64,000 nucleotides of DNA from Pseudomonadota bacterium. GTDB taxonomy: Bacteria > Desulfobacterota > Syntrophobacteria > Syntrophobacterales > Syntrophobacteraceae. Below are positions 32,206 to 63,679 of the stretch, piece after piece. The notes under the pieces are model-generated. The model worked only from the letters and a program-made list of their open reading frames with translations. It did not search any database and had not been told where the DNA came from. Positions within the stretch are counted from its first letter, which is position 1. Each line of letters opens with the position of its first letter. The position numbers were made by a program, and so were the translations under genes. The stretch covers positions 5,705-69,704 of the forward strand of contig JAEZHY010000301.1 of the NCBI GenBank assembly GCA_023416335.1. The letters run 5' to 3'.

Positions 32206-32278
32206 GGCGAGGTAGCTCAGTCGGTAGAGCAGTGGACTGAAAATCCTCGTGTCCTCAGTTCGATTCTGAGCCTCGCCA
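32206..32278 (+). tRNA. tRNA-Phe (GAA)
   Basis: A 73-nt cloverleaf without encoded CCA: acceptor GGCGAGG/CCTCGCC, D stem GCTC/GAGC, anticodon loop CTGAAAA (anticodon GAA), T stem CTCAG/CTGAG with loop TTCGATT, discriminator A. The anticodon stem GTGGA/TCCTC has a U28-U42 mismatch, where tRNA-Phe normally has a pair. Own promoter and terminator flank it. Confidence 0.95.
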
Positions 32279-48481: not shown

Positions 48482-48999
48482 GCGTCTACCTTTGCCGTGA
48501 AGCGGCAGGTGCGTTCTCCAGTGCACCAGCAGTCTACTTCTTTCACACTGAAGCGTTTGCCCGTGTAACTCTCCATGAGTCCGGCGATGAATCCTTCATC
48601 ATAAGTGCAGATCTCATAGCCCAGTTCGGGGAGACCCGAGCAATCCAGGTCTTCCGAGACAGTGAAGACAAAGTTTTCATTCTTTGCGTCAGCATGTTCG
48701 ACTCGAAATACGCCTATCCCCATCTCCCTGAGAGTGTTCTGCACCTGCTTGACGAAATCGGCAAAATCAGCGGAGCGGTCAAGCACATGTTGGTAGAACT
48801 GGCATCCCGCAAGTTTGCCGGCTTCATAAAAAAACTTGTCCGCCTTATCGCTGCCCACGTTCTGCTCCAAAACATCGCGGACGCAAAACTGCATCAGGCG
48901 ATAGACTTCCAGGCGGGCGGAACGTCCGAGATTAGGCCGTCCCAGGTCGAGGTCTCCTATCAAGTCCCAGGAGAACTTATACTTGCTCTTTCCCTCCAT
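48478..48999 (-). CDS. V4R-domain sensor protein
   Basis: A 173-residue protein whose C-terminal half (about 95-170) is a V4R domain, with the final CWCTGERTCRF cysteine motif that can bind small molecules or metal. V4R domains act as ligand sensors (4-vinyl reductase, XylR-type). The start at 48999 has GGAG upstream. Coupled to the kinase gene by GTGA overlap; the two likely form a sensor-kinase unit. Confidence 0.88.
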   Translation of the reverse strand: MEGKSKYKFSWDLIGDLDLGRPNLGRSARLEVYRLMQFCVRDVLEQNVGSDKADKFFYEAGKLAGCQFYQHVLDRSADFADFVKQVQNTLREMGIGVFRVEHADAKNENFVFTVSEDLDCSGLPELGYEICTYDEGFIAGLMESYTGKRFSVKEVDCWCTGERTCRFTAKVDA

Positions 49000-49109
49000 T
49001 GACTGCTCCTGCGTGGGTCTCACCGGATGTGATACGTTTTCTCTTCGATTGAGATTATAATCAATTATATCAAATGGACGCGCTCCCAGACAGAGTTTTG
49101 TCGAAAGGA

Positions 49110-49799: not shown

Positions 49800-49815
49800 T
49801 GGCACCGCTCTTGCT
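49800..49815 (+). promoter_or_regulatory. Sigma-54 promoter of the usp-TSUP-PEP-synthase-like operon
   Basis: TGGCAC-CGCTC-TTGCT: GG at 49801-49802 (-24) and GC at 49813-49814 (-12) with the required ten bases between. Transcription would start near 49826, 18 bases before the first ATG. Confidence 0.8.
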
Positions 49816-49843
49816 CATATCATCCCTGACGAAAGGGTGAAGC

Positions 49844-50272
49844 ATGGAACGGATACTCGTCAGTATGGATGCACGGCACGGGGCTTGGGGGGCCTGGTCC
49901 AGAGCCATTTCGCTCGCCAGGCGGATAAACGCCCGTGTGTTTGTGCTCCTGGTATTTACCCCCGGTGAGGATGGGGGCGGAAATGGAGAAAACGGGGCAG
50001 GCGAGAGTGTAAGGCATCGCCTCGAGCTTCTTATCGAATTGGCAAAATCAGACGGGATTTCAATCGATTACTTCGTTTCGGAGGGTAACTATGAAGAAGA
50101 GGTGATCCAATTTGCCGACCATAACCGAATCACTCTGATGGTAGCCGAACCTTCCGACGGAAGCAGCAGGCACCACGAGCGGGAGTCTCTTTCTTTCCAG
50201 AAAATCCGGCATCGCATCAATTGCAGGATGGAGCTGGTAAGTCCCCGAAAACCTCAGAATCTCCAGGCATGA
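49844..50272 (+). CDS. UspA-family universal stress protein-like
   Basis: A 142-residue protein with Usp pattern: ERILVSMDARHGAWGAWSRAISLARRINARVFVLLVF at the start (beta1-alpha1-beta2), VSEGNYEEEVIQFADHNRITLMV later. The ATP-loop G-x2-G-x9-G(S/T) is not clear, so nucleotide binding is uncertain. First gene after the sigma-54 promoter, GAAAGGGTGA ribosome site; the TSUP gene follows 11 bases on. Confidence 0.8.
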   Translation: MERILVSMDARHGAWGAWSRAISLARRINARVFVLLVFTPGEDGGGNGENGAGESVRHRLELLIELAKSDGISIDYFVSEGNYEEEVIQFADHNRITLMVAEPSDGSSRHHERESLSFQKIRHRINCRMELVSPRKPQNLQA

Positions 50273-50283
50273 CAGGATAAAAG

Positions 50284-51219
50284 ATGGGCATTCCAATCCA
50301 CATGTATCTACCGATAGCAGGAAATAGCGTTAACATGCTCGCAATCCTTGGCTTGGGCGGAGCCGTTGGACTCTTGTCCGGTATTTTCGGAGTCGGCGGC
50401 GGTTTTCTCATGACGCCCCTTCTCATTATGATGGGCATCCCTCCAACGGTTGCAGCAGCTTCGGATTCCAACCAGATCGTAGGGGCTTCCACTTCCGGGA
50501 CACTGGCGCATTTTCGCCTCGGTAACGTCGACTGCAAAATGGGACTGCTCCTTCTTCTCGGAGGCGTCGTCGGCGGGACGGCCGGGGTGCAGGTGATCAA
50601 GGTGCTTCGCCAGCTCGGCAACGCGGATTTCCTTATCAACGTCACCTATGTACTGATGCTCGGAATTATTGGCGGGTACATGTTCATCGAAAGCATACAG
50701 TCGATGCGGGCTCCCAGGGTGGAATCGAACCGGCCGGCCAGGGAAAAGGAATCGGTTTATGCAAATCTGGTCAACGGACTGCCCTGGCAGGTCGATTTCA
50801 AACGCTCCGGTGTGCGTCTTTCGATCCTCATGCCTCTCGTTCTCGGCGTGCTCGTCGGGATACTTTCGGCGATCATGGGAGTAGGCGGCGGGTTCATCAT
50901 GGTCCCCGTAATGGTCTACCTGCTGCGGATGCCCATGCACGTCGTCGTCGGCACGAGCCTTTTCCAGATTCTCTTTACCTGCATCAACGTCACGTTCATG
51001 CAGGCATGGGAAAACCACACGGTGGATTTCGTCCTGGCGCTGCTGCTTCTGATAGGGTCCTCCTTCGGCGCTCAGATGGGGGCGATTGTGGGGAAAAAAC
51101 TGCGCGGCGATCAGTTGAAGATCCTGCTCGCGTCGCTCGTGCTCGTGGTGATGGTGAAAATGCTCTATCAGCTTCTGGCCAGGCCCGATGTTTTGCTGGC
51201 ATATGTCGGAGGACACTGA
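50284..51219 (+). CDS. TSUP-family (TauE/SafE) sulfite/anion exporter
   Basis: A 311-residue inner-membrane protein, two homologous halves each with the family motif: SGIFGVGGGFLMTPLL (about 33-48) and SAIMGVGGGFIMVPVM (about 198-213), eight to nine hydrophobic segments. TSUP members export sulfite, sulfonates or other anions. The central loop (RAPRVESNRPAREKESVY) is cytoplasmic. In a sulfate reducer sulfite, taurine-like sulfonate or sulfoacetate are possible cargo, but the sequence does not tell. Confidence 0.9.
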   Translation: MGIPIHMYLPIAGNSVNMLAILGLGGAVGLLSGIFGVGGGFLMTPLLIMMGIPPTVAAASDSNQIVGASTSGTLAHFRLGNVDCKMGLLLLLGGVVGGTAGVQVIKVLRQLGNADFLINVTYVLMLGIIGGYMFIESIQSMRAPRVESNRPAREKESVYANLVNGLPWQVDFKRSGVRLSILMPLVLGVLVGILSAIMGVGGGFIMVPVMVYLLRMPMHVVVGTSLFQILFTCINVTFMQAWENHTVDFVLALLLLIGSSFGAQMGAIVGKKLRGDQLKILLASLVLVVMVKMLYQLLARPDVLLAYVGGH

Positions 51220-51220
51220 G

Positions 51221-51997
51221 ATGAAGACAAAAAGCCTTCTTTGTGCGGCCGTACTGTGCCTGCTTCTTTCCGTTCCCGTATATGCCGGGGATTCCATGCA
51301 GCCGACCGTGGAACCGCAGGTTATAAGTATAGGTGCCCTCTATAACGGCACGACCCTGCACGTTGACGGAAGCATTCCCGCCGACGGCAACGTCGTTCTG
51401 CGGTTCCTGGGCGCTTCCTGCAACCTGCAATTGAAGGAAAAGGGCAAAGTCTTCGGCCTGATGTGGATGAACCTGGACTCACTGGTTCTTAGCGGGGTGC
51501 CGAGCGTCTGCATCGTCGATGCGGCCGAGATTCCCGGCAGTTCGGCGAAGAGTTCGGGTGAGGGCAAGGCCCTCGAACCTTTCCTGCTCGGAGCGCTCAA
51601 GGATGGGGCCAGGATAGAAGGTGAAGGCGCCGGGCAACATGAGAGTGCCTTCGATGAGTTTATCAAATTGAAAAAAGAAGAGGGGCTCTACCGCGAGGTG
51701 GCCGGAAATATCAGGTTCGATCCCGCGTCGGACGGCCGGAAGTCTTTTCACGCGGAAATTCCGGTCCCGTCGCGCCTTGCCCCCGGCGATTACCTCGTCG
51801 AGGTCTCAGCCATCAGAAACGGTGGGGTCGTGAGCAGAAGCGAGTTGCCTGTGTCTGTAAAACTCGTTGGATTTCCCGGCTTTCTGGCAGGCCTTGCCTA
51901 TAAGCATGCCGCGCTCTACGGCGTGCTTGCCACGCTTATAGCCCTCCTGGGCGGACTGGCTATAGGCGCCGTATTCCAGAGCAAGGGAGCCCATTAA
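51221..51997 (+). CDS. TIGR02186-like exported membrane-anchored protein
   Basis: A 258-residue protein with signal peptide (LLCAAVLCLLLSVPVYAG), a periplasmic beta-rich domain (ISIGALYNGTTLHVDG, VVLRFLGASC) and one C-terminal membrane helix (LYGVLATLIALLGGLAIGAVF). It matches the TIGR02186 family in layout, which I recall as a partner of TauE-type exporters; that and its place directly after the TSUP gene suggest an accessory subunit. ATG at 51221 follows GGAGGACACTGAG. Confidence 0.8.
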   Translation: MKTKSLLCAAVLCLLLSVPVYAGDSMQPTVEPQVISIGALYNGTTLHVDGSIPADGNVVLRFLGASCNLQLKEKGKVFGLMWMNLDSLVLSGVPSVCIVDAAEIPGSSAKSSGEGKALEPFLLGALKDGARIEGEGAGQHESAFDEFIKLKKEEGLYREVAGNIRFDPASDGRKSFHAEIPVPSRLAPGDYLVEVSAIRNGGVVSRSELPVSVKLVGFPGFLAGLAYKHAALYGVLATLIALLGGLAIGAVFQSKGAH

Positions 51998-52008
51998 AGG
52001 GCAGTGGG

Positions 52009-54600
52009 ATGAATCTATTAGCCGAATTCAAAAGTATGGTCCTGTGCCGGTCCCATGCAAAGCCTGCCGTTCCCTTTTCAGTGCTTTTCAAGAAATTCAA
52101 GGCCATATTGGAGCGCAACAACCGGATCCTTGAACTCATGGCCGACATGGGCGACAAGCTGGGCGGAGAGTACATATTCGACCGGCAGTATATCTTCGAT
52201 ACCTGTGAGCGTCTCAACGACCATGTGTTCAAACTCATATCCGACCTCTGCGTCTTGAATCATCGGAAGAATACGGACCTTTTCATCGCCTTCGAGCGGA
52301 TCCAGCACGAAATCCAGGAGGAAATGGCCGGACGGCATGCTTTCCCAATGGTGAAGCCGGCCATACTCCTGGACGACATCAACTCGGACCTGATCGATGA
52401 GGTCGGAAACAAGTTTGCCGGACTCGGGGACCTGCGCAACATCCTCTCGCTTCCGGTCACCGACGGCTTCGTCATCACGACGAAGACGTTCTTCGATTTT
52501 ATGGAGCATAACGCCCTTTTCGATCTCATCCAGGAGAAGCTGTCGCACTGGGACGGCGAGGACAGGGAATACTTCCGGTACATGTCCCGGGATTTGCAGC
52601 AGCACATTCTGGATGCGAAAGTGCCTCGCTCCATCTCCTCTCACATCGATGCCATGCTTGATATCATCTCGTCCCGCCACAGGGGAATTCCGCTCAAGTT
52701 TGCCGTCCGGAGCAGCGCCTGGGGCGAGGGTGGCGAATTCAGCTTTGCAGGGCAGTACGACAGTGTTCTCAACGTGCCGGCGAGCGGAGTTCCGGATGCG
52801 TATAAGCGGGTGGTGGCAAGCGCCTACTCGCCGGAGGCCTGGCAATACCGCATTCACAGGGGATACCGCGAGCACGAGACGGCCATGGCGGTAGGCTGCC
52901 AGATCATGGTGGAAGCCGAATCGAGCGGGGTCATCTACACATATGCGCCCGGGATGTCCGACAGGGAATCGATGGTCATCAGTGCCGTGTGGGGACTCGG
53001 TCCTGCCGTTGTGGACGGGACCGCAGAGTCCGACACGTTCATTCTCGACCGGGAGCCTCCTTACGCCCCCATCTTCTCCGAACCGGGTCAGAAGGACAGG
53101 CGAATCGCACCCATTCATGGCGGCGGAGTGGATTGGCAGGATGTTCCAGAGGATATCCGGGGTGTCCCGTGCCTGACCGCCGAGCAGATGAACGATCTTG
53201 CCCAGGCCGCAATGGCCATCGAGCGTTACTACCGGCAGCCGCAGGATATCGAATGGGCTTTCGACAAAAAAGGAAACCTGTTCATTCTTCAGGCGCGCCC
53301 TCTAAATATCCGCCCCGCGGGGATCGAGACCATTTCGGTCGAGGATGCCTTTACATCCGACCAGGTAATCTTTTCCGGCAAGGGTACGGTGGTGCACGGA
53401 GGAGTAGGTTGCGGGAAGGTCCGCGTGGTTCGGAAAGACCAGGATCTGGACGACTTTCCTCAGGGAGGCATTCTTGTCGCGAAGTATACGTCCCCCAGGT
53501 ATTCCCGGGTAATGAACAAGGTCCAGGGCATCATTACGGATATCGGATCCGCGACGGGGCACATGGCGGCTCTTGCCCGCGAGTACCGCATCCCTGCGAT
53601 TGTCGATACCGGCGATGCAACGAGCATCCTGTCAAACGGAGACGAGATAACGTTGGATGCCGGGCAAAGGACCGTTTATAGAGGGCTGCTGACGGGGCTC
53701 GACCAGTTCGATCTCACGGGTGAAGACGTTTTCGAAGAGTCCTATGAGTTCCGCCTGCTCAGGCGGCTTTTGCGCAAGATAAACCCGCTCAATCTCGTGG
53801 ATCCGCACCGCGAGGACTTCAAACCGACTTCCTGCCGGACCTACCACGACATAACGCGGTATATCCATGAGAAGGCCGTCGAGAAGCTGATAGACCTGAG
53901 CGAGAATTATCAGAACCAGCACGATGCGCCTCCCAGGCGCTTCGAATTCGAGATCCCGCTTGGACTGATGATCATCGATATCGAAAACGGAACGACAGCC
54001 CCGCGAAACAGTACATCGGTGACCGCGGCCGACATCGTTTCAGTCCCGATGAAGGCACTGTTGGAAGGCCTGGCGGAATCGGGGATGTGGGAGACAGAAC
54101 CGGTGTCCCTCGACCTGAAGGGTTTCATGTCGAGCCTTACGCGGACGTTCAGCGCCCAGATGGCGAGTCCCGATACGATCGGACGCAACCTCGCGGTGGT
54201 TTCGAAGGAATACCTGAATCTCAATCTCAGGTTGGGCTATCACTTCAATATTGTCGATGCTTATATAGGGGACTCGCTGAACGACAACTATATCTACTTC
54301 CGATTCCTCGGGGGAGTTACGGACCTTGTCCGTCGGTCGCGCCGTGCCAGGTTTATCGCCGAAGTCCTGGAAAGATTCGATTTCCGGGTGGAAACGCACG
54401 GGGACCTCGTGGTCGGGAGAATAAAGAAGTTTTCCGGGGACAGGATGGCTGGCAAGATGAGAGTTCTCGGCGGCCTGATCGGCTACACGCGGCAGCTCGA
54501 TATCCAGATGCACAGCGACAGCCTGGTCGGACATTACCTGACGGATTTTATCCGGCGCATCCAGCCCTTTACGGAGGAAGATTATGGCCATTCCCTCTGA
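52009..54600 (+). CDS. PEP-synthase-like protein 1 (ATP-grasp, phospho-His swivel, unknown C-terminal domain)
   Basis: An 863-residue protein. Residues 1-110: helical domain with LMADMGDKLGGEYIFDR. Residues about 130-440: PPDK/PpsA ATP-binding domain with intact AVRSSAWGEGGEFSFAGQ (R234), QDIEW (412-416) and LQARP (427-431). Residues 455-560: swivel domain with phospho-His H518 in IGSATGHMAALAREYRIPA. Residues 565-863: an unrecognised domain (SCRTYHDITRYIHE; GRNLAVVSKEYLNLNLRLGYHF; NYIYFRFLGG) instead of the PEP/pyruvate TIM barrel. So ATP could phosphorylate the His, but the final acceptor is unknown. 11 bases after the previous gene. Confidence 0.85.
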   Translation: MNLLAEFKSMVLCRSHAKPAVPFSVLFKKFKAILERNNRILELMADMGDKLGGEYIFDRQYIFDTCERLNDHVFKLISDLCVLNHRKNTDLFIAFERIQHEIQEEMAGRHAFPMVKPAILLDDINSDLIDEVGNKFAGLGDLRNILSLPVTDGFVITTKTFFDFMEHNALFDLIQEKLSHWDGEDREYFRYMSRDLQQHILDAKVPRSISSHIDAMLDIISSRHRGIPLKFAVRSSAWGEGGEFSFAGQYDSVLNVPASGVPDAYKRVVASAYSPEAWQYRIHRGYREHETAMAVGCQIMVEAESSGVIYTYAPGMSDRESMVISAVWGLGPAVVDGTAESDTFILDREPPYAPIFSEPGQKDRRIAPIHGGGVDWQDVPEDIRGVPCLTAEQMNDLAQAAMAIERYYRQPQDIEWAFDKKGNLFILQARPLNIRPAGIETISVEDAFTSDQVIFSGKGTVVHGGVGCGKVRVVRKDQDLDDFPQGGILVAKYTSPRYSRVMNKVQGIITDIGSATGHMAALAREYRIPAIVDTGDATSILSNGDEITLDAGQRTVYRGLLTGLDQFDLTGEDVFEESYEFRLLRRLLRKINPLNLVDPHREDFKPTSCRTYHDITRYIHEKAVEKLIDLSENYQNQHDAPPRRFEFEIPLGLMIIDIENGTTAPRNSTSVTAADIVSVPMKALLEGLAESGMWETEPVSLDLKGFMSSLTRTFSAQMASPDTIGRNLAVVSKEYLNLNLRLGYHFNIVDAYIGDSLNDNYIYFRFLGGVTDLVRRSRRARFIAEVLERFDFRVETHGDLVVGRIKKFSGDRMAGKMRVLGGLIGYTRQLDIQMHSDSLVGHYLTDFIRRIQPFTEEDYGHSL

Positions 54601-54994
54601 AGCCCGAAGCGGCGTCAAGACGCAGATCCTCATCCTCGACGACGAACCGATCGTCTGCAAGCGGCTGAAGCCCGCTTTCCAGAAGGCCGGCTACGAAGTC
54701 GAAACCTTCACGGACAGCGCTCTTGCCATGGCCAGAGTAGAGGAGAAAAGATTCGACGTCGTCATTACCGATCTCAAAATGGAAGGAACCGACGGGATAC
54801 AGTTCCTGATGCGCATCAAGGAAATCTCACCGGATACCGGCGTCATTGTCATTACGGGCTTTGCGACCGCCGAGACCGCCAGGGAATCGCTTCGCGAAGG
54901 CGCCTTCGATTTTGTGGCCAAGCCCTTCAAATTGAGCGACATTCTGGACATTGTCGCCGGTCTGATGGATAAATCAAGGCGGCGGGCCGTGTGA
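54584..54994 (+). CDS. CheY-like receiver protein
   Basis: A 136-residue single-domain response regulator: acidic pair ILILDDEP, phospho-acceptor D63 in VITDLKM, switch Thr91 (VIVITGF) and K113 (AKPFK). No output domain. It overlaps the end of PEP-synthase-like gene 1 by 17 bases, with GGAGGAAG as ribosome site inside that gene, so both are made together. The phosphodonor may be the kinase at 62198 or 46265. Confidence 0.92.
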   Translation: MAIPSEARSGVKTQILILDDEPIVCKRLKPAFQKAGYEVETFTDSALAMARVEEKRFDVVITDLKMEGTDGIQFLMRIKEISPDTGVIVITGFATAETARESLREGAFDFVAKPFKLSDILDIVAGLMDKSRRRAV

Positions 54995-55104
54995 TGGGTG
55001 GGAGCGAAGCGGGAACCCATCGTTTTTAAAGGTCCGCTCCGTTGGCAGCCGCCAGGAGGCGATTGAGAGCCGGCGAAGGTTGGGCAAATTTCAAGGGAAC
55101 CGTT

Positions 55105-57555
55105 ATGCGTCTGCCTTTCTTAAAACATTCGAAGAGGGGAGCCGAATCCAAACAGGATCTGGAACGGATCAGGTCCGTTTTCTCGAAGTTCAGGCGCATT
55201 CAGAAACTCAACACGAAAATTTTGGGACTAATGGCCGAAATGGAACGCGCCCTCGGCGGCGAGTACATTTTTGATCGTTCCTTTCTCGATCGGTCCGTAC
55301 GCGACTTGGGCGCCGATGTTTACCAGGTCGTATACAGCCTTAACGCCCTCTCCGGAAACAGGTACATAGGCCTTTTCGACCGCTTCCAAACCGTGAAGAA
55401 TACCCTCGAAGACGTCCTGGCCGGAGGCCTTGGGGCTTTCGAATCGAGCCTCGCCATTCCCTCCCCGGAACTCGGATGGGAACTTGAGCCGATGGCGGGT
55501 ATTGTAGGCGTTTGCCTGGCTGAAGCCCGCAACCGCCTTGGAATTTCCGCTCCGGACGGTTTCGCCGTTACAGTGCAGGGTTGTCGAAAGTTCATTATCC
55601 AGAACCGGCTCGGACGGACGAACGGTTCCGGACCTGAACCTGCCGGCCTTGTTTTCCCGCCGGAACTGGAAGAGGCCATCCTCCGGGAGCGGGAGGAGCT
55701 TTTCAAAAGGCGTGGCGGTCCTGTAAATCTGGTGGTGCGTGCCTGTTCGGCAGGCGGTTCCGAAAACGCTCGGTTCAATTTCCCTGCCCGGGATGTGGCG
55801 CCCGATGACCTTCTTTCTGCTGTAAAACTGGCCGTGACAGATTTTATAAAGGCATCGGCCGGGTCCGATACGGAGCTTTCCTGTGCTCTGGCAATCCATG
55901 AAAGCATTCAGGGTGGGGTCTCCGGTTCTGTAAAGGCTGGTCCCGCGGGACTACTGCATGTGACTGCGGTCCCGACCGAAAACCCCGGCCGGGAAGATAG
56001 TTACCTGGTCCGGCGAGTCCATCCATTCAATCTCGTGCAGTCGAACATACATCCCAAATCACACGATCGGGAACTCAAGCCCGGGGTGAAGTCTCTTTCG
56101 CACTCTTCTGCCCCGCTCAGGCGCGGTTCCGGTCTGCTCGATCCCGCTTTTCTGCGGTCCCTGGCCGGAACGGCCGCCGCCATCGAACGCATTCTCGGGC
56201 GGCCTCACGAAATGAGGTGGACAGTCGGCGAGGCAGGGCGGCCCGTTATATTGGACGTTCGCCCTGTTGCCGTTTCCAACGACCATGAATTGGACGAGGG
56301 AGAATTTGCAGACCTGAGCGGAATGGAGACCATCCTCAGGGGCGGGGAGACGGTCCAAACGGGGATTGCGGCCGGCCGTGTCATGCACGTGAACGAACAG
56401 ACGAAGGCCGAGACATTTCCCCGCGGTTCGGTTGCCGTCGCGCGCAATGCAAGTCCTCAGCTGAGTCTGGTACTCAGGAGGGCCTCGGCGATTATTACGG
56501 AAACGGGTACTTCCGTCAGCCACCTGGCGACGATTGCCAGAGAGTTGCGCGTTCCGGCGATCTTTGGGGTTCCAGGAGCACTGGACCGACTCCGGGAAGG
56601 AACCGAGATAACCGTGGATGCGACGGAACGAACCGTCTACAGGGGCGTGATCGAATCGCTTCTTAACCAGGCTCCCGGATCGGAACTCTTTCCGAGCGAT
56701 CCGGAATACGTCATGCTGCGATTCCTCCTGCGGTTCATCATGCCTCTCGGCCTGGTCGATCCGGAGTCGCGCGACTTCCTCCCGGAAAACTGCCGGACCT
56801 ATCATGATATAATTCATTTTTCCCACGAACGGTCCGTCGATGAACTGCTGCACGTCCAGGAGAGGCATCGGGGGCTGAACCGCCTCCATCCGCGCTGGCT
56901 CGCGGCGGGCGTCCCATTGGCGATATATGTTTTGGATATCGAGGCTTCGGAGGCTTCCGAAGGACTCTCTTCGATAGAAATCGATGAGCTGAATTCGGAA
57001 CCTCTTCTGGCCTTCATTCGCGGACTTACGGTTAAGGAAATGTGGGAGAGCGGACCCGCCTCGTTGCGGATGAGGGATATCTTCTCGAACCTGGACAGGA
57101 CCTTTCTTCCCCCGGCGGCCTCGGAAAAGACCGGGAGAAACCTGGCTGTTGTCGCCCGGAACTATATGAACCTGGGTCTGCAGATGGGGTATCACTTCAG
57201 CGTGATCGACTGTTTTCTCGGAGAAGATCCCAATCAGAATTATGTTTACTTCCGATTCGCAGGTGGATTTGCCGAAGACCGGAAACGCCGGAGGAGAGCG
57301 GAGCTGATCCGGATGATCCTGGACGGAATGGATTTCAAGGTGAGCGTAAAGGGGGACCTCGTGACGGGCAAATTCAAGGGGGGCGGACCACGCGAGACTT
57401 CCGCGGTGCTCACCCGGTTGGGCGAGCTTACTGCGTTCACCCGCCAGCTCGATACTTCCATGACTTCAGAACAGAAGATCGAAGACTTTGCCCAGGCATT
57501 TTTCGCAAAAGCGGTCCACGGGGTTCGGATATCCGGGGAATCTCAACATGTTTGA
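55105..57555 (+). CDS. PEP-synthase-like protein 2, ATP-grasp degenerate
   Basis: An 816-residue paralogue of protein 1 with the same N-terminal helical block (LMAEMERALGGEYIFDR) and C-terminal unknown domain (CRTYHDIIHFSHERSVDEL; GRNLAVVARNYMNLGLQMGYHF). The ATP site is eroded: VRACSAGGSENARFNFPARD in place of VRSS...SFAGQ, HEMRW for QDIEW and LDVRP for LQARP. The swivel His is kept (H473 in TGTSVSHLATIARELRVPA). Thus it may receive phosphate from a partner rather than ATP. ATG at 55105 has AAGGGA; an upstream TTG with AGGAGG (about 55069) is possible. Confidence 0.85.
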   Translation: MRLPFLKHSKRGAESKQDLERIRSVFSKFRRIQKLNTKILGLMAEMERALGGEYIFDRSFLDRSVRDLGADVYQVVYSLNALSGNRYIGLFDRFQTVKNTLEDVLAGGLGAFESSLAIPSPELGWELEPMAGIVGVCLAEARNRLGISAPDGFAVTVQGCRKFIIQNRLGRTNGSGPEPAGLVFPPELEEAILREREELFKRRGGPVNLVVRACSAGGSENARFNFPARDVAPDDLLSAVKLAVTDFIKASAGSDTELSCALAIHESIQGGVSGSVKAGPAGLLHVTAVPTENPGREDSYLVRRVHPFNLVQSNIHPKSHDRELKPGVKSLSHSSAPLRRGSGLLDPAFLRSLAGTAAAIERILGRPHEMRWTVGEAGRPVILDVRPVAVSNDHELDEGEFADLSGMETILRGGETVQTGIAAGRVMHVNEQTKAETFPRGSVAVARNASPQLSLVLRRASAIITETGTSVSHLATIARELRVPAIFGVPGALDRLREGTEITVDATERTVYRGVIESLLNQAPGSELFPSDPEYVMLRFLLRFIMPLGLVDPESRDFLPENCRTYHDIIHFSHERSVDELLHVQERHRGLNRLHPRWLAAGVPLAIYVLDIEASEASEGLSSIEIDELNSEPLLAFIRGLTVKEMWESGPASLRMRDIFSNLDRTFLPPAASEKTGRNLAVVARNYMNLGLQMGYHFSVIDCFLGEDPNQNYVYFRFAGGFAEDRKRRRRAELIRMILDGMDFKVSVKGDLVTGKFKGGGPRETSAVLTRLGELTAFTRQLDTSMTSEQKIEDFAQAFFAKAVHGVRISGESQHV

Positions 57556-60121
57556 TTTCGCGCGCAGAATCATCGAAAAATGGCGAAGCCACAAACTTGC
57601 CAGGGCCGAAGCCTACCGGGACGAGCTGAAGGGACGGTATCATACTTTTCGGGCTCTTCTCGCCAATAACGAACATTCCCTCGATCTGCTGAAGTCGCTC
57701 GAACTTTCCTTTGCTTCCTTCAAACATTGCAGGCCCGATTTTGCCGATACGATCGAAGAACTTCTGCATGTAACTTATGAGCAGGTGGACGGGTTGAACC
57801 AGTTGAGCGGCCGAGGCGACAACATGCTGTACCAGGCGCACGGTGCCGTTGCCGATGCGGTCCGGCAGGCGCTGAGGGCCGTCCGGTCGCACTCCTGCAG
57901 CGGACCGCGCTGTCTTTTTTTCGATCAAATCGGTCCCGAACTCCATTCCGAAGTGGGTGGCAAAGCCGCTTCACTCGCTTTTCTGAGGCGATCGGGATTT
58001 ACGGTACCGAATGGGTTCGTTATCACTCCCGGATTCTGCTCCGATTTCTTCTCCGCGAATGGAATCGAGTTTTCAGGTCTCGGCAAGGGACTTGAGAAGG
58101 ACGGTCCTGAACCGGGCGAGCACATAATGAGCGGAATCTTGCCCCGGCAGCTTCGCGAGGAACTGCAGCGCTGCTATCGGCAGATCGCGCCGAATGGCGA
58201 GGCCGTATCGGTGCGCAGCAGCGCTCTTGTTGAGGACCGCCCGGAGCACTCGTTTGCCGGCCAGTTCAAGACTGTTCTCAACGTGACCTCCTTCGAGTCG
58301 TTCGAGAACGCTTTCAGGGAGGTCCTTGCGAGCAATTACAATGCGAGGGCGACGGCTTATCGAATCCATAGCGGCTTGCCCGCTGCAAGGAACGATATGG
58401 CTGTGATCTGCCAGCGCATGGTCGCGGCAAGGTCCGCAGGGGTCCTTTTCACTCTCGATCCTGCGGCCCCCGATGGCGGGCGCATGCTGATCAGCGCGGT
58501 CCCCGGGCTTGGTACGCTCGTGGTTGGCGGGGCCGCGCCGGCCGACGTCTACAGGCCTTTACGCGAAAATACGGATGCCGAGCCGTTCGATAGCTGGGCT
58601 CAAGTTACGGAGAAATCGCTTCGTTCGGTCCCCGAGCCGGGAGGAGGCATACGAAACGAGGAGTTGCCGCCGGCTGAAAAAAATGTCCCGGTCCTTTCCG
58701 TGCCGGAGATACGGTCTCTGGTTGCCCTCGGCCGCAAAATAGAGAGCCTCGTCGGTTCGGCCCAGGATATAGAGTGGGCTGTGACCGAAGCCGGCGACAT
58801 CTTTATCCTGCAATCCCGGGGTATAAGGATTCCCATCAGGAAAAAGCAAACCGCCGAGTCGGTAAGGGGCAGGGAAATAATGCGGGCGGGCCAAAGCGCA
58901 TCACCGGGACGCTGCGTCGGCATAGTCAAAGTGATCCGATCCCAGCAGCAGTTCGAGCAGTGGAGAGAACCGGTCCCCTCACCAACAATAATGGTCCTGC
59001 ACCAAAGCCTCGTGGATTCCGCACGGCGTCTGCCGGAGGTCGAAGGCGTCGTCGTAGATTTGGGCAATCCCGCAGACCACCTCTCGTGTGTGGCCCGCGA
59101 ATACGGACGTCCGATGATAACCGGCGCCGCGAAAGCGACGGAGATGCTCCGGGACGGACAATGGATTGTCCTCGATGCAGACCGGACCGCGATTTATGAA
59201 GCCCCTGAAGGGACATGGGCGGACTCGCCCGTTGCTTCCTCGGCTCATATCGCCGGAAACGGGCACAGGCAACGGGAGGTCCCCGTGGAACCCGAAATAG
59301 CCATGCTGCGCGACCTGATCGAGCCCCTCAACCTGACGGATGCGTTCGGGCCGACTTTTTCCATCCACGAATGCAGGTCCGTGCACGACATCATCCGGTA
59401 TACGCATGAAATGGCGGTCCTGGCGATGTTTGAAGCAGGGGACGAGGTGCTCGAAGGCGCCGGCGGTCTCGTGCACCGACTGGAGAGCGACATCCCTTTT
59501 CATGTGATGATGATAGACCTTGGAGGCGGTCTTGCACCTCATCGGAAGGGATTCGGCATCGGAGTCGGGGACGTCCTTTCAAAACCGTTCCGAGCCTTCT
59601 GGGAGGGAGTTTCGACTCCCGGGCTTCGATGGAACGCTCCCGCGTCGTCCACGAGTATTTCCGGACTCTTTTCCAGGGCGATGCTCGATGGCCGGAGCGC
59701 CCGCCCGGTGGGCAGTCAGAACTACGCTCTGGTCTCGGGTGATTATTTGAACCTGAATGCGCGGGTCGAATACCATTTCACTATGGTGGATGCGATCTGC
59801 GGACGAAACCCGCGGGAAAACCATATCCGCTTCCGCTTCAAGGGGGGAGGGACCGCCGCGGAGCAGAGGGAGCGCCGAACGCGCTTTATCGATGAAATTC
59901 TGAAAGCCTATGCGTTTGCAACGGACTTGCGCGGAGATTTGCTTACGGCTTCGATCGCCGAACTTCGCATGGAGGAAATAGAAGAGAGGCTTGCGGTACT
60001 GGGCAGACTCATGGGCTTTACCCGCCTCCTCGACGCGGCAATGACCGCCGACGACATGCCTCTCAAGGCGGCCAGGGCTTTTCTCGAAGGCGATTACGGC
60101 CTGGAGAGCCTTATGGCATAA
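57548..60121 (+). CDS. PEP-synthase-like protein 3
   Basis: An 857-residue paralogue. Residues 1-110: helical, but without the LGGEYIFDR motif of the other two. ATP-binding domain (about 125-430) intact: VRSSALVEDRPEHSFAGQ (R223), QDIEW (406-410), LQSRG. Swivel domain with H511 in LGNPADHLSCVAREYGRP, where the usual TSH is ADH. C-terminal unknown domain (CRSVHDIIRYTHEMAV; NYALVSGDYLNLNARVEYHF). Overlaps gene 2 by eight bases (ATGTTTGA). Last gene of the operon, ending six bases from the convergent phosphatase gene. Confidence 0.85.
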   Translation: MFDFARRIIEKWRSHKLARAEAYRDELKGRYHTFRALLANNEHSLDLLKSLELSFASFKHCRPDFADTIEELLHVTYEQVDGLNQLSGRGDNMLYQAHGAVADAVRQALRAVRSHSCSGPRCLFFDQIGPELHSEVGGKAASLAFLRRSGFTVPNGFVITPGFCSDFFSANGIEFSGLGKGLEKDGPEPGEHIMSGILPRQLREELQRCYRQIAPNGEAVSVRSSALVEDRPEHSFAGQFKTVLNVTSFESFENAFREVLASNYNARATAYRIHSGLPAARNDMAVICQRMVAARSAGVLFTLDPAAPDGGRMLISAVPGLGTLVVGGAAPADVYRPLRENTDAEPFDSWAQVTEKSLRSVPEPGGGIRNEELPPAEKNVPVLSVPEIRSLVALGRKIESLVGSAQDIEWAVTEAGDIFILQSRGIRIPIRKKQTAESVRGREIMRAGQSASPGRCVGIVKVIRSQQQFEQWREPVPSPTIMVLHQSLVDSARRLPEVEGVVVDLGNPADHLSCVAREYGRPMITGAAKATEMLRDGQWIVLDADRTAIYEAPEGTWADSPVASSAHIAGNGHRQREVPVEPEIAMLRDLIEPLNLTDAFGPTFSIHECRSVHDIIRYTHEMAVLAMFEAGDEVLEGAGGLVHRLESDIPFHVMMIDLGGGLAPHRKGFGIGVGDVLSKPFRAFWEGVSTPGLRWNAPASSTSISGLFSRAMLDGRSARPVGSQNYALVSGDYLNLNARVEYHFTMVDAICGRNPRENHIRFRFKGGGTAAEQRERRTRFIDEILKAYAFATDLRGDLLTASIAELRMEEIEERLAVLGRLMGFTRLLDAAMTADDMPLKAARAFLEGDYGLESLMA

Positions 60122-60127
60122 TCGTGC

Positions 60128-60799
60128 TCACGCGTGGTAAAAACGCAACCGAGGCAACTCGACTGCTGTGAGCATGTTTCCATATACCGCTCCGGTGTCG
60201 ATCCCGATCTTGCCGGGGGCGACAAAGGGTGTTTCAAAAGGGGTGTGGCCGAAAACCACGACGGGTTCTATCGCCTGGTCGTCATTCAGGAAAACATCCC
60301 GGACGAAAAGCAGCCTGTCGAGCGGAGCGGTTCGATAGTCCTCTTCCGGCAAAATTCCGGCGTGTGTGAAAAGGTATCCGCTCGTTTCGTAATACGGCAG
60401 AAGCCCCTTCAGGAAAATACGGTGCTCGTCGGGCAGAAATGAAAGGCCGCAAAGAGAACTCACCGGGCTGTCGCCATAGCTCTTCAGCGTGGCTTCCACT
60501 CCCATCACGCGCAGGATTTTCAGGTACTCCAGGTCGCACGTCGATGCGTATTGCAGCAGGGCAAATTCGTGATTGCCCATGAGAAAGACCGTATCGGCCA
60601 CTCTTGTGCGGAGTTCCAGGAGAAAATCGATCACTTCCCGTGATTGCGGCCCACGGTTGATGTAGTCCCCAACGAAAACGAGAAGATCTTCTTCGGGATG
60701 GATGGGCAGCCGGTCCATCAAACTTTCGAGCTGTTGGAGGCATCCATGGATGTCGCCGACGGCGAAAATCCTCCGATTCCCTTCATGTTTCGATTCCAA
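60128..60799 (-). CDS. PPP-type metallophosphatase (serine/threonine or diadenosine type)
   Basis: A 223-residue calcineurin-like phosphatase with all metal motifs: GDIHGC, GDYINRG, GNHE, then FTHAGI and FGHTP. It resembles bacterial PrpA/lambda-phosphatase enzymes. It is the third gene of the kinase-activator operon (40 bases after the activator stop). Start is a TTG at 60799 with a weak ribosome site. Its target could be phospho-Ser/Thr or phospho-His of proteins coded nearby; that is inference. Confidence 0.88.
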   Translation of the reverse strand: MESKHEGNRRIFAVGDIHGCLQQLESLMDRLPIHPEEDLLVFVGDYINRGPQSREVIDFLLELRTRVADTVFLMGNHEFALLQYASTCDLEYLKILRVMGVEATLKSYGDSPVSSLCGLSFLPDEHRIFLKGLLPYYETSGYLFTHAGILPEEDYRTAPLDRLLFVRDVFLNDDQAIEPVVVFGHTPFETPFVAPGKIGIDTGAVYGNMLTAVELPRLRFYHA

Positions 60800-60839: not shown

Positions 60840-62186
60840 TCATTCCTCGATCTTGAGTTCCTTCAACCTTCGCCAGAGCGTCGTCCTGGGCAAGTTCAGA
60901 ATCTGGGCCGTCAGTCCCTTGTTGTACCCGGTTCTCTCCAGTACCCGCGCGATGTATCGCTTCTCGACTTCTTCGAGGCTCAGGAAGCCCTCTCCCTCGA
61001 CGGTATCAAACTCGAGTTGCTGAAGATCGCTGGGCAGGTCCTGGGGGCGCAACTGGTCGCCTTCGGTCAGAGCCACGGCGCGTTCGATAATGTTTTCGAG
61101 TTCCCGCACGTTTCCGGGGAACGTGTAGTTTGTCAGGATGCTGAGAGCCTGCGGCTGAATGCCTCTCACGTTCTTGCGGAAAGCGAGGCTGAATTTCTCG
61201 ATGAAGTGCTTGATCAGGAGTGGAATATCCTCGCGCCGTTCTTTGAGCTGGGGGACCTGTATGGTAACCACGTTCAGTCGGTAGAAGAGGTCTTCGCGAA
61301 AATTGCCCTGAGCGACTTCGTGCTTCAGGTCCCTGTTGGTTGCGGCGATGATGCGGATATCCAGGTCGATCGGGCGTGTTCCTCCCACGCGGAGGATCCG
61401 CTTCTCCTGGATCACGTGCAGGAGCTTCACCTGCATCGAAAGCGGCATCTCGCCGACTTCATCCAGGAAAACCGTGCCTCCCGAGGCGGATTCCAGGAGC
61501 CCGATCTTGGTGGCCGTTGCCCCCGTGAAAGCCCCTTTTTCATACCCGAACAGTTCCGCGCTGATAAGTTCTTCCGTGAACCCTCCGCAATTGAAAGAAA
61601 CAAAACCGTGCTCCGCCCGCCCGCTCAGCCGGTGGATCGCCCTCGCAACGAGCGCTTTTCCCGTGCCGCTCGCTCCCTGCAGCAAAACGTTGCAACCGAT
61701 CGGAGCCACTTTCTGCACCATCGAGAAAAGTTGATTTATGACCGGGCTGGTCCCGACGATCGTACCCAGGGCATGATCGCCCTTGAGGGCCTCCCGGAGC
61801 CTGTCGTTTTCCCGGCGCATGCTGATCTTTTCGTGCGCCCTCTTTGCGAGGAGCCGGATTTCATTCAGCTTGAGAGGTTTGGTGGCGTAATGAAATGCGC
61901 CTTCCTTGATTGCCGCGATCGCGCCGTCGATCGATCCATATCCCGTGATGATGATGACTTCGGTTTCGGCCCTGATCGATTTAACCTTCCCGAGCACTTC
62001 CATTCCCGTCATGTCCGGCAGCCTGAGGTCGGAGAAGACAATATCGAACTGCTGCTGCGGCATGCACTCCAGAAAGGCGTGCCCCGTTGTAAAAGCCTCC
62101 ACCTCGTAGCCTTCCCTGGAAAGAGCCTGGCTTAGGCGGCGGCAGACCGTTATTTCGTCATCTATTATGGCCAATCGTATCTGCAT
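60840..62186 (-). CDS. Sigma-54-dependent response regulator (NtrC family)
   Basis: A 448-residue activator: receiver (1-120, phospho-acceptor D53 in VFSDLRLPD), AAA+ domain (about 140-375) with GASGTGKALVARAIH as Walker A (first Glu replaced by Ala), sigma-54 loop GAFTGA, Walker B FLDEVGEMP and R-finger region, and a C-terminal Fis-type HTH (LTAQILNLPRTTLWRRL). ATG at 62186 chosen; a TTG at 62201 overlaps the kinase stop. It is the obvious candidate to act at the sigma-54 promoter 49800. Confidence 0.93.
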   Translation of the reverse strand: MQIRLAIIDDEITVCRRLSQALSREGYEVEAFTTGHAFLECMPQQQFDIVFSDLRLPDMTGMEVLGKVKSIRAETEVIIITGYGSIDGAIAAIKEGAFHYATKPLKLNEIRLLAKRAHEKISMRRENDRLREALKGDHALGTIVGTSPVINQLFSMVQKVAPIGCNVLLQGASGTGKALVARAIHRLSGRAEHGFVSFNCGGFTEELISAELFGYEKGAFTGATATKIGLLESASGGTVFLDEVGEMPLSMQVKLLHVIQEKRILRVGGTRPIDLDIRIIAATNRDLKHEVAQGNFREDLFYRLNVVTIQVPQLKERREDIPLLIKHFIEKFSLAFRKNVRGIQPQALSILTNYTFPGNVRELENIIERAVALTEGDQLRPQDLPSDLQQLEFDTVEGEGFLSLEEVEKRYIARVLERTGYNKGLTAQILNLPRTTLWRRLKELKIEE

Positions 62187-62197
62187 GGTAAGAAGAC

Positions 62198-63679
62198 TCA
62201 AAGTTTTGGAGGCCTTGCCCCCTCGTGTAAGTCAAAAACCGGCAGGAAGACGGAGAACAGGCTGCCTTCTCCTTTTGTGCTCCTGACCTCGATCTTTCCG
62301 CCGTGCCTTTTCGTAATGGAGTAGGCGACCGCAAGCCCGAGCCCCGTACCTCGCCCGACTTCCTTGGTGGTGTAGAAGGGCTCGAATATGTGCTGCAAAG
62401 TTTCCTGGTCGATTCCCATGCCCGTATCGTGAACATCGAAGCGAACAAATCCGGGGCCATCGGCGCGGGCCGTTGCTGAGATGGTTCCGCCCTCGGGCGT
62501 GGCCTGAATCGCATTGAGAAGCAGGTTCATGAATACCTGCTGCAGGTTTCTCAAATTTCCCCTGATCCGCGGCAAATCGGACTGAATATCCAGTTCGAGC
62601 CTGATGCCGGAAATCATGATCTGGTTCTTTATAAGGGCCGTAGTGCTTTGGACGATTTCGGCCGCATCAAGGTCTGAAAACGCCGGACGCTCCGTTCTTG
62701 AAAAATCGAGCAGGTTCCTGACTATCTCCCCGGCGCGATCGGACTGTGCCACGATATCCTGCATCATTTCTTTGCCGTCCGGGTCCATCCTCTCGGAATA
62801 TTCTTCGAGGTAGGTCTCGGCCGTCAGGGAAATGTTGTTGATCGGGTTATTCAATTCGTGTGCAATTCCTGCCGTGAAAGTCCCCAATGCGGCAATCTTC
62901 CTGGCCTGAAGAAGGTCTTCCTGGTTCGTTTCCAGTTCTTGGGCCATTCGGTTGAATGCGCCTATCAGACCGGAGATTTCTTCGTTGTGCAGGCCCTCGT
63001 AGGGAGTCGGGCTGTAGTCCCCCTTCGCAACCCTCTGGATCGTGGAGCGGAGTGCTCCCAGCGGCCTGAGCAATCCCTGCGACACGAGCCGTATGACGAG
63101 AATTATGAGTAGGAGGAACACTGCCAGAAAAGCGATCGGAAGGAGCGACGTCTGGAAGATCGCTTTATGAATCCTCGCCCGTTTGGTTTTCACAAGCTGG
63201 TCGGTGAAATCCAGCAGGGTTTTTCCCTGTCTGCGGATTTCATCGCGGTCTCTGCTGTCGCCGCCGTTTGCTGCGTAAGTCCTGAAGGTGTTGCCGTATT
63301 CGTTCAGTGCGTTTTGAAAAGCATCGAAGGTATTGCGGTTCGTCACCCTGATGATGTCGTCGGAGAGTTCCGAAACGAGGCTGTCGATTCTCAGCAGGTA
63401 TTGGATGCCTTCCTGTAGGCCGTTCACGTCGTTGTAAAAGAGGAAATTCTTCTCGAATCTGCGCACCTCGAGAATGTCGTTGAGAAGATCGTTATAGCTT
63501 TCGCCGAGGAGCAAGCGGGATTTGACGGTGGACAGGCTGAGTGAGTTGAGAAGCATCAGGGCAAAGACGGAAAGGAGAGTGGCCGCAAAAACGATAAAAA
63601 GCTGTCCCTTGATGGATCGGACCAGTTTCGCGGGTCTTCCTCTTTGTTGAAGTTCTGAAAAAGTGGGTAGAAGCTTCAT
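62198..63679 (-). CDS. Membrane-bound sensor histidine kinase
   Basis: A 493-residue kinase: TM1 (26-46), periplasmic helical sensor (about 50-175), TM2 (178-198), HAMP (199-252), HisKA with H274 in AGIAHELNNPI, HATPase (NLLLNAIQATPEGG; DTGMGIDQETL; GTGLGLAVAYSI). This is the NtrB/ZraS-like type that pairs with NtrC activators. It overlaps the activator gene, so they form a two-component pair. The ligand is unknown. Confidence 0.93.
   Translation of the reverse strand: MKLLPTFSELQQRGRPAKLVRSIKGQLFIVFAATLLSVFALMLLNSLSLSTVKSRLLLGESYNDLLNDILEVRRFEKNFLFYNDVNGLQEGIQYLLRIDSLVSELSDDIIRVTNRNTFDAFQNALNEYGNTFRTYAANGGDSRDRDEIRRQGKTLLDFTDQLVKTKRARIHKAIFQTSLLPIAFLAVFLLLIILVIRLVSQGLLRPLGALRSTIQRVAKGDYSPTPYEGLHNEEISGLIGAFNRMAQELETNQEDLLQARKIAALGTFTAGIAHELNNPINNISLTAETYLEEYSERMDPDGKEMMQDIVAQSDRAGEIVRNLLDFSRTERPAFSDLDAAEIVQSTTALIKNQIMISGIRLELDIQSDLPRIRGNLRNLQQVFMNLLLNAIQATPEGGTISATARADGPGFVRFDVHDTGMGIDQETLQHIFEPFYTTKEVGRGTGLGLAVAYSITKRHGGKIEVRSTKGEGSLFSVFLPVFDLHEGARPPKL

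Follow-up and report, generated by a model that had tools for sequence, protein, structure and literature searches.

The subject of this study is a gene cluster in contig JAEZHY010000301.1 of a Pseudomonadota bacterium (assembly GCA_023416335.1, assigned to the Syntrophobacteraceae in GTDB), of which a stretch of 64,000 nucleotides, here called the window, was analysed. The cluster codes for three large proteins related to phosphoenolpyruvate (PEP) synthase, PpsA, which we name A, B and C and which share a C-terminal domain (CTD). A previous reading made from the sequence alone had placed a universal stress protein (Usp), a TSUP permease and a TIGR02186-like protein before A and a CheY-like receiver between A and B. 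Open reading frames (ORFs) and Pfam matches agree with this arrangement, with all seven genes on the plus strand and tightly spaced or overlapping:

49800..49815, plus strand: sigma-54 -24/-12 element TGGCACCGCTCTTGCT, strict match to the pattern TGGCAC-N5-TTGCT
49844..50272, plus strand: Usp, 142 amino acids (PF00582)
50284..51219, plus strand: TSUP/TauE-SafE permease, 311 amino acids (PF01925)
51188..51997, plus strand: TIGR02186/Alph_Pro_TM protein (PF09608), with a hydrophobic N-terminus and a single C-terminal transmembrane segment
52009..54600, plus strand: PpsA-like protein A, 863 amino acids (PF01326 and PF00391)
53731..54597, plus strand: CTD of A (residues 575-863), with H613, D614, H620, H745, R779 and D831
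54584..54994, plus strand: single-domain CheY-like receiver (Response_reg), 136 amino acids, overlapping the end of A
55105..57555, plus strand: PpsA-like protein B, 816 amino acids (degenerate PF01326, and PF00391), CTD at about 56677-57522
57548..60121, plus strand: PpsA-like protein C, 857 amino acids (PF01326 and PF00391), CTD at about 59267-60118

The PpsA-like proteins and their C-terminal domain

Protein A consists of an N-terminal region (residues 1-115), an ATP-grasp domain (116-433), a swivel domain (451-564, with the putative phospho-acceptor His518) and the CTD (575-863). The N-terminal region of about 115 residues is common to A, B and C and is helical in the predicted model of A. 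The sequence-only reading had described three PpsA-like proteins of 863, 816 and 857 residues; lengths, order and domains stand, but the ATP-grasp of B is degenerate, scoring only 31.9 bits against PF01326 compared to 258 bits for A and 221 bits for C. In B the K, E and Q positions are lost, while the swivel His and the CTD residues are retained; C has an intact ATP-grasp and the swivel His. The same picture emerges from 80 full-length sequences of related loci (52 A, 14 labelled as B and 14 C). The residues K135, R234, E415 and Q428, which we take to be catalytic, are retained in 49-50 of 52 A and in all 14 C proteins, yet in only 3-5 of 14 B proteins. The swivel His is present in 51 of 52, 14 of 14 and 14 of 14 A, B and C proteins, respectively.

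A FastTree phylogeny of 183 CTD sequences, built without an outgroup and midpoint-rooted for display, groups 25 B copies in a single block. In each of them three or all four of the ATP-site residues are gone and the swivel His remains; these states were read from an automatic alignment that is least certain where the ATP-grasp is degenerate. Since two sister copies of this block (L060 and L067) have an intact ATP site, a single loss inside the B clade is the simplest reading. Over the whole tree, parsimony gives three origins of the ATP-dead state, and each of the 28 copies scored as ATP-dead has an intact copy within the same retrieved locus. One locus, L078, deviates in its order: B, C, an ApaH-like gene, TSUP, TIGR02186, A and receiver follow each other in one co-oriented series, and its A lacks both the ATP-grasp K and the swivel His.

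The CTD measures about 285-290 residues, and those of B and C are 39% and 36% identical to that of A. No Pfam, NCBIfam or PDB family was matched by its sequence. The predicted model (pLDDT 87.7) suggests a mixed alpha/beta fold, for which a fold search of the PDB gave no convincing match. Thus, the earlier claim of an unrecognised shared domain at the place where PpsA and pyruvate phosphate dikinase (PPDK) have their PEP/pyruvate barrel is borne out, and the profile and fold searches that it had called for matched no domain with an assigned substrate. Among the 183 sequences, all of which were found by a profile of the CTD itself and are therefore biased to conserved copies, D614, H620, H745, G768, G769 and R779 are present in every one and H613 and D831 in 182 each, compared to 179 for the swivel His. 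Two copies which have neither an ATP site nor the swivel His (Gln is found there) and one copy with Pro at this position still retain the CTD residues. Because these residues are the most constant ones and are kept even where ATP site and swivel His are gone, the CTD seems to have a function of its own. A likeness of the CTD motif C-R-T-x-H-D-I-x-R-F-x-H-E to the H-box of histidine kinases was considered, but it had no statistical support and was not used. Candidates for standalone CTD proteins were dismissed, as the short matches among the best 120 of 374 look like truncated genes.

With regard to the other proteins of the cluster, the TSUP permease scores 164.5 bits (cut-off 32.6) and has eight hydrophobic segments, in agreement with the about eight transmembrane segments of TSUP proteins. 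The TIGR02186 protein is a divergent member (53.5 bits against a cut-off of 255), and the true start of its frame is probably at 51221. In the receiver the Asp pair, the phospho-acceptor Asp, the Thr and the Lys are all present, and no output domain was found by Pfam.

The -24/-12 element starts 44 bp 5' of the Usp gene and is the only strict match on both strands of the window, which is in line with the previous assignment of a sigma-54-controlled operon. In related loci, 26 of 63 operon starts also have a strict box (between -400 and +60), compared to 46 of 4000 random stretches of equal size. Convergent with C, three genes that the first reading did not include lie on the minus strand between 60128 and 63679:

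60128..60799, minus strand: ApaH/PrpE-like calcineurin phosphoesterase (PF00149)
60840..62201, minus strand: NtrC-type sigma-54 activator, 453 amino acids, receiver-AAA-Fis helix-turn-helix
62198..63679, minus strand: HAMP histidine kinase, 493 amino acids (Pfam)

The NtrC-type activator is the probable regulator of the operon. Upstream of the operon and divergent from it (46265-49023, minus strand) are genes for a PAS-rich histidine kinase (753 amino acids) and a V4R-domain protein (181 amino acids), a candidate second sensor pair. The only Rfam match of the window at the gathering threshold is one tRNA gene at 32206-32278.

Conservation of the module and distribution of the domain

Related loci were collected as the best 80 of 239 confirmed ones (332 pattern matches) in one scan of a genome collection; since they were picked by similarity to the CTDs of the window, the window type is over-represented. 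Neighbours were mapped with the window proteins as queries and misses were rechecked by tblastn. A receiver follows A in 79 of 80 loci (69 before tblastn, 10 through it). TSUP is found upstream of A in 65 of 66 loci with enough flanking sequence (60 before, 5 through tblastn) and TIGR02186 in 71 of 73 (69 before, 2 through tblastn). The apparent losses were thus mostly misses of ORF calling: 10 of the 11 absent receivers, 5 of the 6 TSUP and 2 of the 4 TIGR02186 genes came back with tblastn. Receiver, TSUP and TIGR02186 are all missing from L079, and TIGR02186 from L063. In 67 of 69 cases the receiver ORF overlaps A or starts at most 50 bp past its end (median gap -4 bp, taking the most upstream starts), and D19, D20, D63, T91 and K113 are present in 69 of 69 aligned receivers.

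The remaining genes are more variable. Usp is located upstream in 39 of 65 loci with enough flank, and a kinase or NtrC gene was found in 64 of 80. Where the sequence extends 6 kb or more downstream, 21 of 57 loci have B and C together. Of the loci reaching 7 kb or more downstream, 18 of the 19 with B and C hold an ApaH-like gene among the five genes that follow A, against none of the 31 that lack B. The place of B and C after the receiver is taken in 39 loci by one or two unlabelled genes, whose 71 products have 180-340 residues; a scan of 67 of these, leaving out four, gave Usp matches at E <= 0.001 for 39 and no match to any other family at this level. Hence, the genes do travel together, as the sequence-only reading would have it, with TSUP-TIGR02186-A-receiver as the constant, nearly invariant unit of these loci and B and C as an optional pair. 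With B being also ATP-dead, three equivalent paralogues are not the essence of the system. A role in defence was considered and discarded: PADLOC gave no match for the PpsA-like, Usp, TSUP and TIGR02186 proteins and only weak ones for receiver and ApaH.

The CTD reaches well beyond loci of the window type. In a draw of 297 genomes from the phylum of a Desulfopila locus (L006), with at most eight candidates scored per genome, it was found in 107, with eight matches in some. Nine genomes hold 49 CTD genes in 30 clusters, 26 of which have a TSUP gene at a distance of no more than 12 kb, where 1.8 would be expected; without the eight window-type operons, seven of which had led to genomes in this set, the proportion is 18 of 22. 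Each of 20 further stretches around CTD genes contains a gene for a kinase, a receiver or NtrC, and TSUP is present in 16. The sensors in these wider stretches include Cache/PAS kinases and membrane-bound sigma-54 activators. In two of them (L101, 4061-9312; L102, 8177-13581) a long sigma-54 activator of 880-898 amino acids, with HAMP or Cache matches that are weak and below cut-off, is encoded directly 5' of the CTD protein, an arrangement as for a one-component regulator.

Of ten stretches from Nitratidesulfovibrio, eight contain a kinase, receiver or NtrC gene and seven (L141-L146 and L150) both TSUP and two-component genes; L149 ends before TSUP. In L147 (4435-8439) the open frame of the CTD protein also has an N-terminal methyltransferase domain, and in L148 (5237-8425) the CTD protein is followed in frame by a weak match to a 3-keto-disaccharide hydrolase (E 6e-5, below cut-off). 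A phosphatase fusion suspected in L149 was not accepted, since the frame contains a masked stretch.

The CTD is associated with dsrA, which is present in 102 of 107 CTD genomes against 42 of the 190 others, an odds ratio of 72 that ignores shared ancestry and incomplete assemblies. Conversely, 102 of 144 dsrA-bearing genomes carry the CTD, and with the same restriction so do 50 of 51 genomes with TIGR02186. In several of the 42 genomes with dsrA and no CTD the dsrA match ends near position 387-395 of 402, as it does in some CTD carriers. Single proteins from metagenome-assembled genomes named Acidobacteriota and Latescibacterota, which may be mis-binned, are among the CTD matches. By these comparisons of sequence, the locus represents one variant of a module that is widespread and uncharacterised, in which a new domain sits on an established phosphotransfer chassis and which is tied to TSUP in dsrA-bearing bacteria.

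A possible role in anion transport and the alternatives

One of the Nitratidesulfovibrio loci, L142, connects the CTD to a genetically studied cluster. Its order is DUF169, TSUP, a small membrane protein (221 amino acids), a sensor kinase (1018 amino acids), a receiver (119 amino acids), a PpsA-like protein and a frame with the tyrosine-type phosphatase motif HCRYGIGRTG, nearly the order listed for Desulfovibrio alaskensis. The PpsA-like protein carries a CTD with 31% identity to that of A (E 2e-36). A relative of it with 50% identity is named Oleidesulfovibrio, which we take to be the present genus of D. alaskensis. For the corresponding cluster of D. vulgaris, Korte et al. (2014) found that 100 mM nitrate makes no discernible difference to the growth of transposon mutants in DVU0251 (TSUP), DVU0250, DVU0247 (a receiver gene of 360 bp) and DVU0246 (PEP/pyruvate-binding and PEP-utilising, 2235 bp) and that insertion and deletion mutants of DVU0245 (phosphatase) remain inhibited, and they suggest a leaky thiosulfate transporter (PMC4001038). 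From synteny and domain order we infer that DVU0246 carries the CTD; it is annotated with 744 amino acids compared to 876 for the L142 frame. The DVU0246 phenotype is not polar on DVU0245, since this is the only cluster gene reported beyond it and its loss gives no resistance in D. vulgaris.

We give about an even chance to the interpretation that the locus encodes an ATP-fuelled phosphohistidine module which serves or controls a TSUP oxyanion transporter, probably for sulfur compounds, in a bacterium of the sulfate-reducer type. The ATP-grasp domains of A and C would place the beta-phosphate of ATP on the swivel His, releasing AMP and Pi, as suggested by homology and conserved residues. The His of B would be charged in trans, or B may serve a complex of A, B and C as a relay or regulatory subunit. 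The swivel would then meet the CTD, whose constant His/Asp/Arg set may form a second phosphoryl-handling or ligand site, and the output could open, energise or tune the TSUP/TIGR02186 transporter. The receiver might bring the input of a sensor kinase onto the complex, ApaH or Usp proteins might reset or sense it, and sigma-54 with the NtrC-type activator would turn the operon on, judged by promoter and neighbours. The natural cargo would most likely be a sulfur oxyanion such as thiosulfate or sulfite. A phosphotransfer complex, as first suggested, finds some support in the tight linkage of the CTD to TSUP and receiver. As its task, an unspecified substrate kinase or a signal relay had been put forward; the synteny with the Desulfovibrio cluster points rather to control of anion transport. 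In a bolder version, which we consider improbable, the CTD proteins would be energy-coupling or gating subunits of a new type of energised anion transport, in which TSUP permeases for sulfur oxyanions are driven or gated by ATP through a swivelling phosphohistidine and the CTD. Such a system would correspond in function to the phosphotransferase system (PTS) for sugars, but with ATP as its fuel and with a tie to dissimilatory sulfur metabolism.

Several points weigh against a transport role. Four of the 30 CTD clusters in the nine genomes have no TSUP gene nearby, L147 and L148 have neither TSUP nor two-component genes, and the dsrA and TSUP associations are uncorrected for shared ancestry. 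So many constant CTD residues are not needed for transport, and we found no biochemistry of any CTD protein. The member in the nitrate cluster is a divergent paralogue, at 31% CTD identity, and its link to DVU0246 comes from synteny and domain order. No separate PtxB-like gene was seen in L142, and the first approximately 330 residues of its sensor kinase are without a Pfam match. The phenotype of the TSUP insertion could arise through polarity on downstream genes. Furthermore, according to Korte et al. the DVU0245 homologue has a positive fitness (2.08) in pooled D. alaskensis data, an isolated mutant of the DVU0248 kinase has little or no advantage, pool and isolate data for DVU0250 are in conflict, mutants of the rex regulator outside the cluster are equally resistant, and the thiosulfate defects are cited as unpublished (PMC4001038).

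The chief rival is a small-molecule dikinase, with the CTD as the acceptor-binding domain and a TSUP-imported compound becoming phosphorylated and so trapped or activated, like in rifampin phosphotransferase or HpeHI; nitrate sensitivity would then result from a futile cycle or ATP drain. Such an enzyme would account for the resistance on loss of the PpsA-like gene alone, its chassis is identical to that of the dikinases, the constant His/Asp/Arg/Gly set of the CTD is as in a catalytic site, and the authors of the HpeHI study suggest that phosphorylation aids substrate scavenging (PMC12167813). We nevertheless regard it as rather unlikely. The neighbours that recur among the labelled genes (many ORFs are unlabelled) code for Usp, receiver, kinase, activator and phosphatase, and none for a metabolic enzyme is constantly present, while B retains its CTD without an ATP site and two copies do so without the swivel His.

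A second rival is a relay to transcription, in which the ATP-charged swivel His passes phosphate through the CTD to the CheY-like receiver or the NtrC activator, as a sensor branch merely regulating the TSUP and Usp genes. The close coupling of A to a receiver with all five phosphorylation residues, the frequency of kinase, receiver or NtrC genes in all three sets of loci, and the phenotype common to receiver and PpsA-like mutants (PMC4001038) argue for it. However, the receiver has no output domain, an activator gene is neither listed for the nitrate cluster as published (PMC4001038) nor found in L142, the phenotype is one of anion toxicity, and the constant CTD residues exceed the needs of a phospho-carrier; we consider this relay quite improbable. 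Finally, it is hardly credible that the proteins are normal isoenzymes of PEP synthase or PPDK whose barrel has diverged. Most of them are called "pyruvate, water dikinase" or "PEP/pyruvate-binding domain-containing protein" in public records, and ATP-grasp and swivel match PEP synthase, but the PEP synthase models align only up to about 465 of 798 positions, the barrel is absent from Pfam, PDB sequence and fold searches, and there are several copies per genome.

If an ATP-to-phosphohistidine step indeed controls a permease, as the transport interpretation has it, this would be a new coupling of phosphotransfer to transport. The movement of sulfate, thiosulfate and sulfite in sulfate reducers and their inhibition by nitrate are open questions of practical importance for oil souring and sediment sulfur cycling. 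A large unnamed domain is now linked to TSUP transporters and to published Desulfovibrio mutants, and its function thus becomes testable with the existing kind of strains.

Comparison with known systems

With PpsA and PPDK the window proteins share the ATP-grasp and the swivel phospho-His in the same order (PF01326-PF00391) and with the same key residues; of the PEP synthase domains, the swivel is found in A, B and C and a proper ATP-grasp in A and C, not in B. They differ by the CTD in place of the barrel (presumably PF02896), which was not detected by Pfam in A, B or C at E <= 0.1, by the additional N-terminal region and by occurring as several copies per genome, next to genes for TSUP and receiver. 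PTS Enzyme I has the swivel fold and phospho-His in common with them, and PtsI models match over the swivel part only; the expected donor here is ATP, not PEP, and no PEP barrel was matched.

Rifampin phosphotransferase, HpeHI, CreHI and phenylphosphate synthase use the same chassis from ATP to His to another acceptor, and two-component dikinases on it have been defined for HpeHI (PMC12167813). B resembles, in function only, their swivel-plus-acceptor subunit without an ATP site of its own. In the HpeHI and phenylphosphate synthase type the ATP-grasp is on a separate chain, whereas A and C have ATP-grasp and swivel-acceptor on one. In the rifampin phosphotransferase model the swivel is at the C-terminus (765-858 of 864), in the window proteins it precedes the CTD, and A reaches 219 bits against a curated cut-off of 999 for NF041857. 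The CTD matched none of the models for these enzymes, and none of the constant neighbours was recognisable as a catabolic gene.

A search of the open-licence literature found no paper on the CTD or its link to TSUP, which is weak evidence of absence. For the transporters, Kazakov et al. (2015) describe nine sigma-54 operons of D. vulgaris with TSUP or PSE transporters and note no substrate data (PMC4641369). Marietou et al. (2018) report TSUP proteins in 44 of 44 genomes examined and call a prediction of function not feasible (PMC5840216). A related kinase-Usp-transporter cluster with molybdate phenotypes has been described (PMC10102598). A further counterpart is the nitrate cluster DVU0251-DVU0245/Dde_0597-0605, for which a PtxB-like gene is also listed (PMC4001038). 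The window differs from it by Usp, TIGR02186, the three PpsA-like genes and a phosphatase of the ApaH rather than the tyrosine type. Both unite TSUP, a small protein, a sensor kinase, a receiver and a PpsA-like protein in one cluster (PMC4001038), and L142, the syntenic Nitratidesulfovibrio locus, has the CTD.

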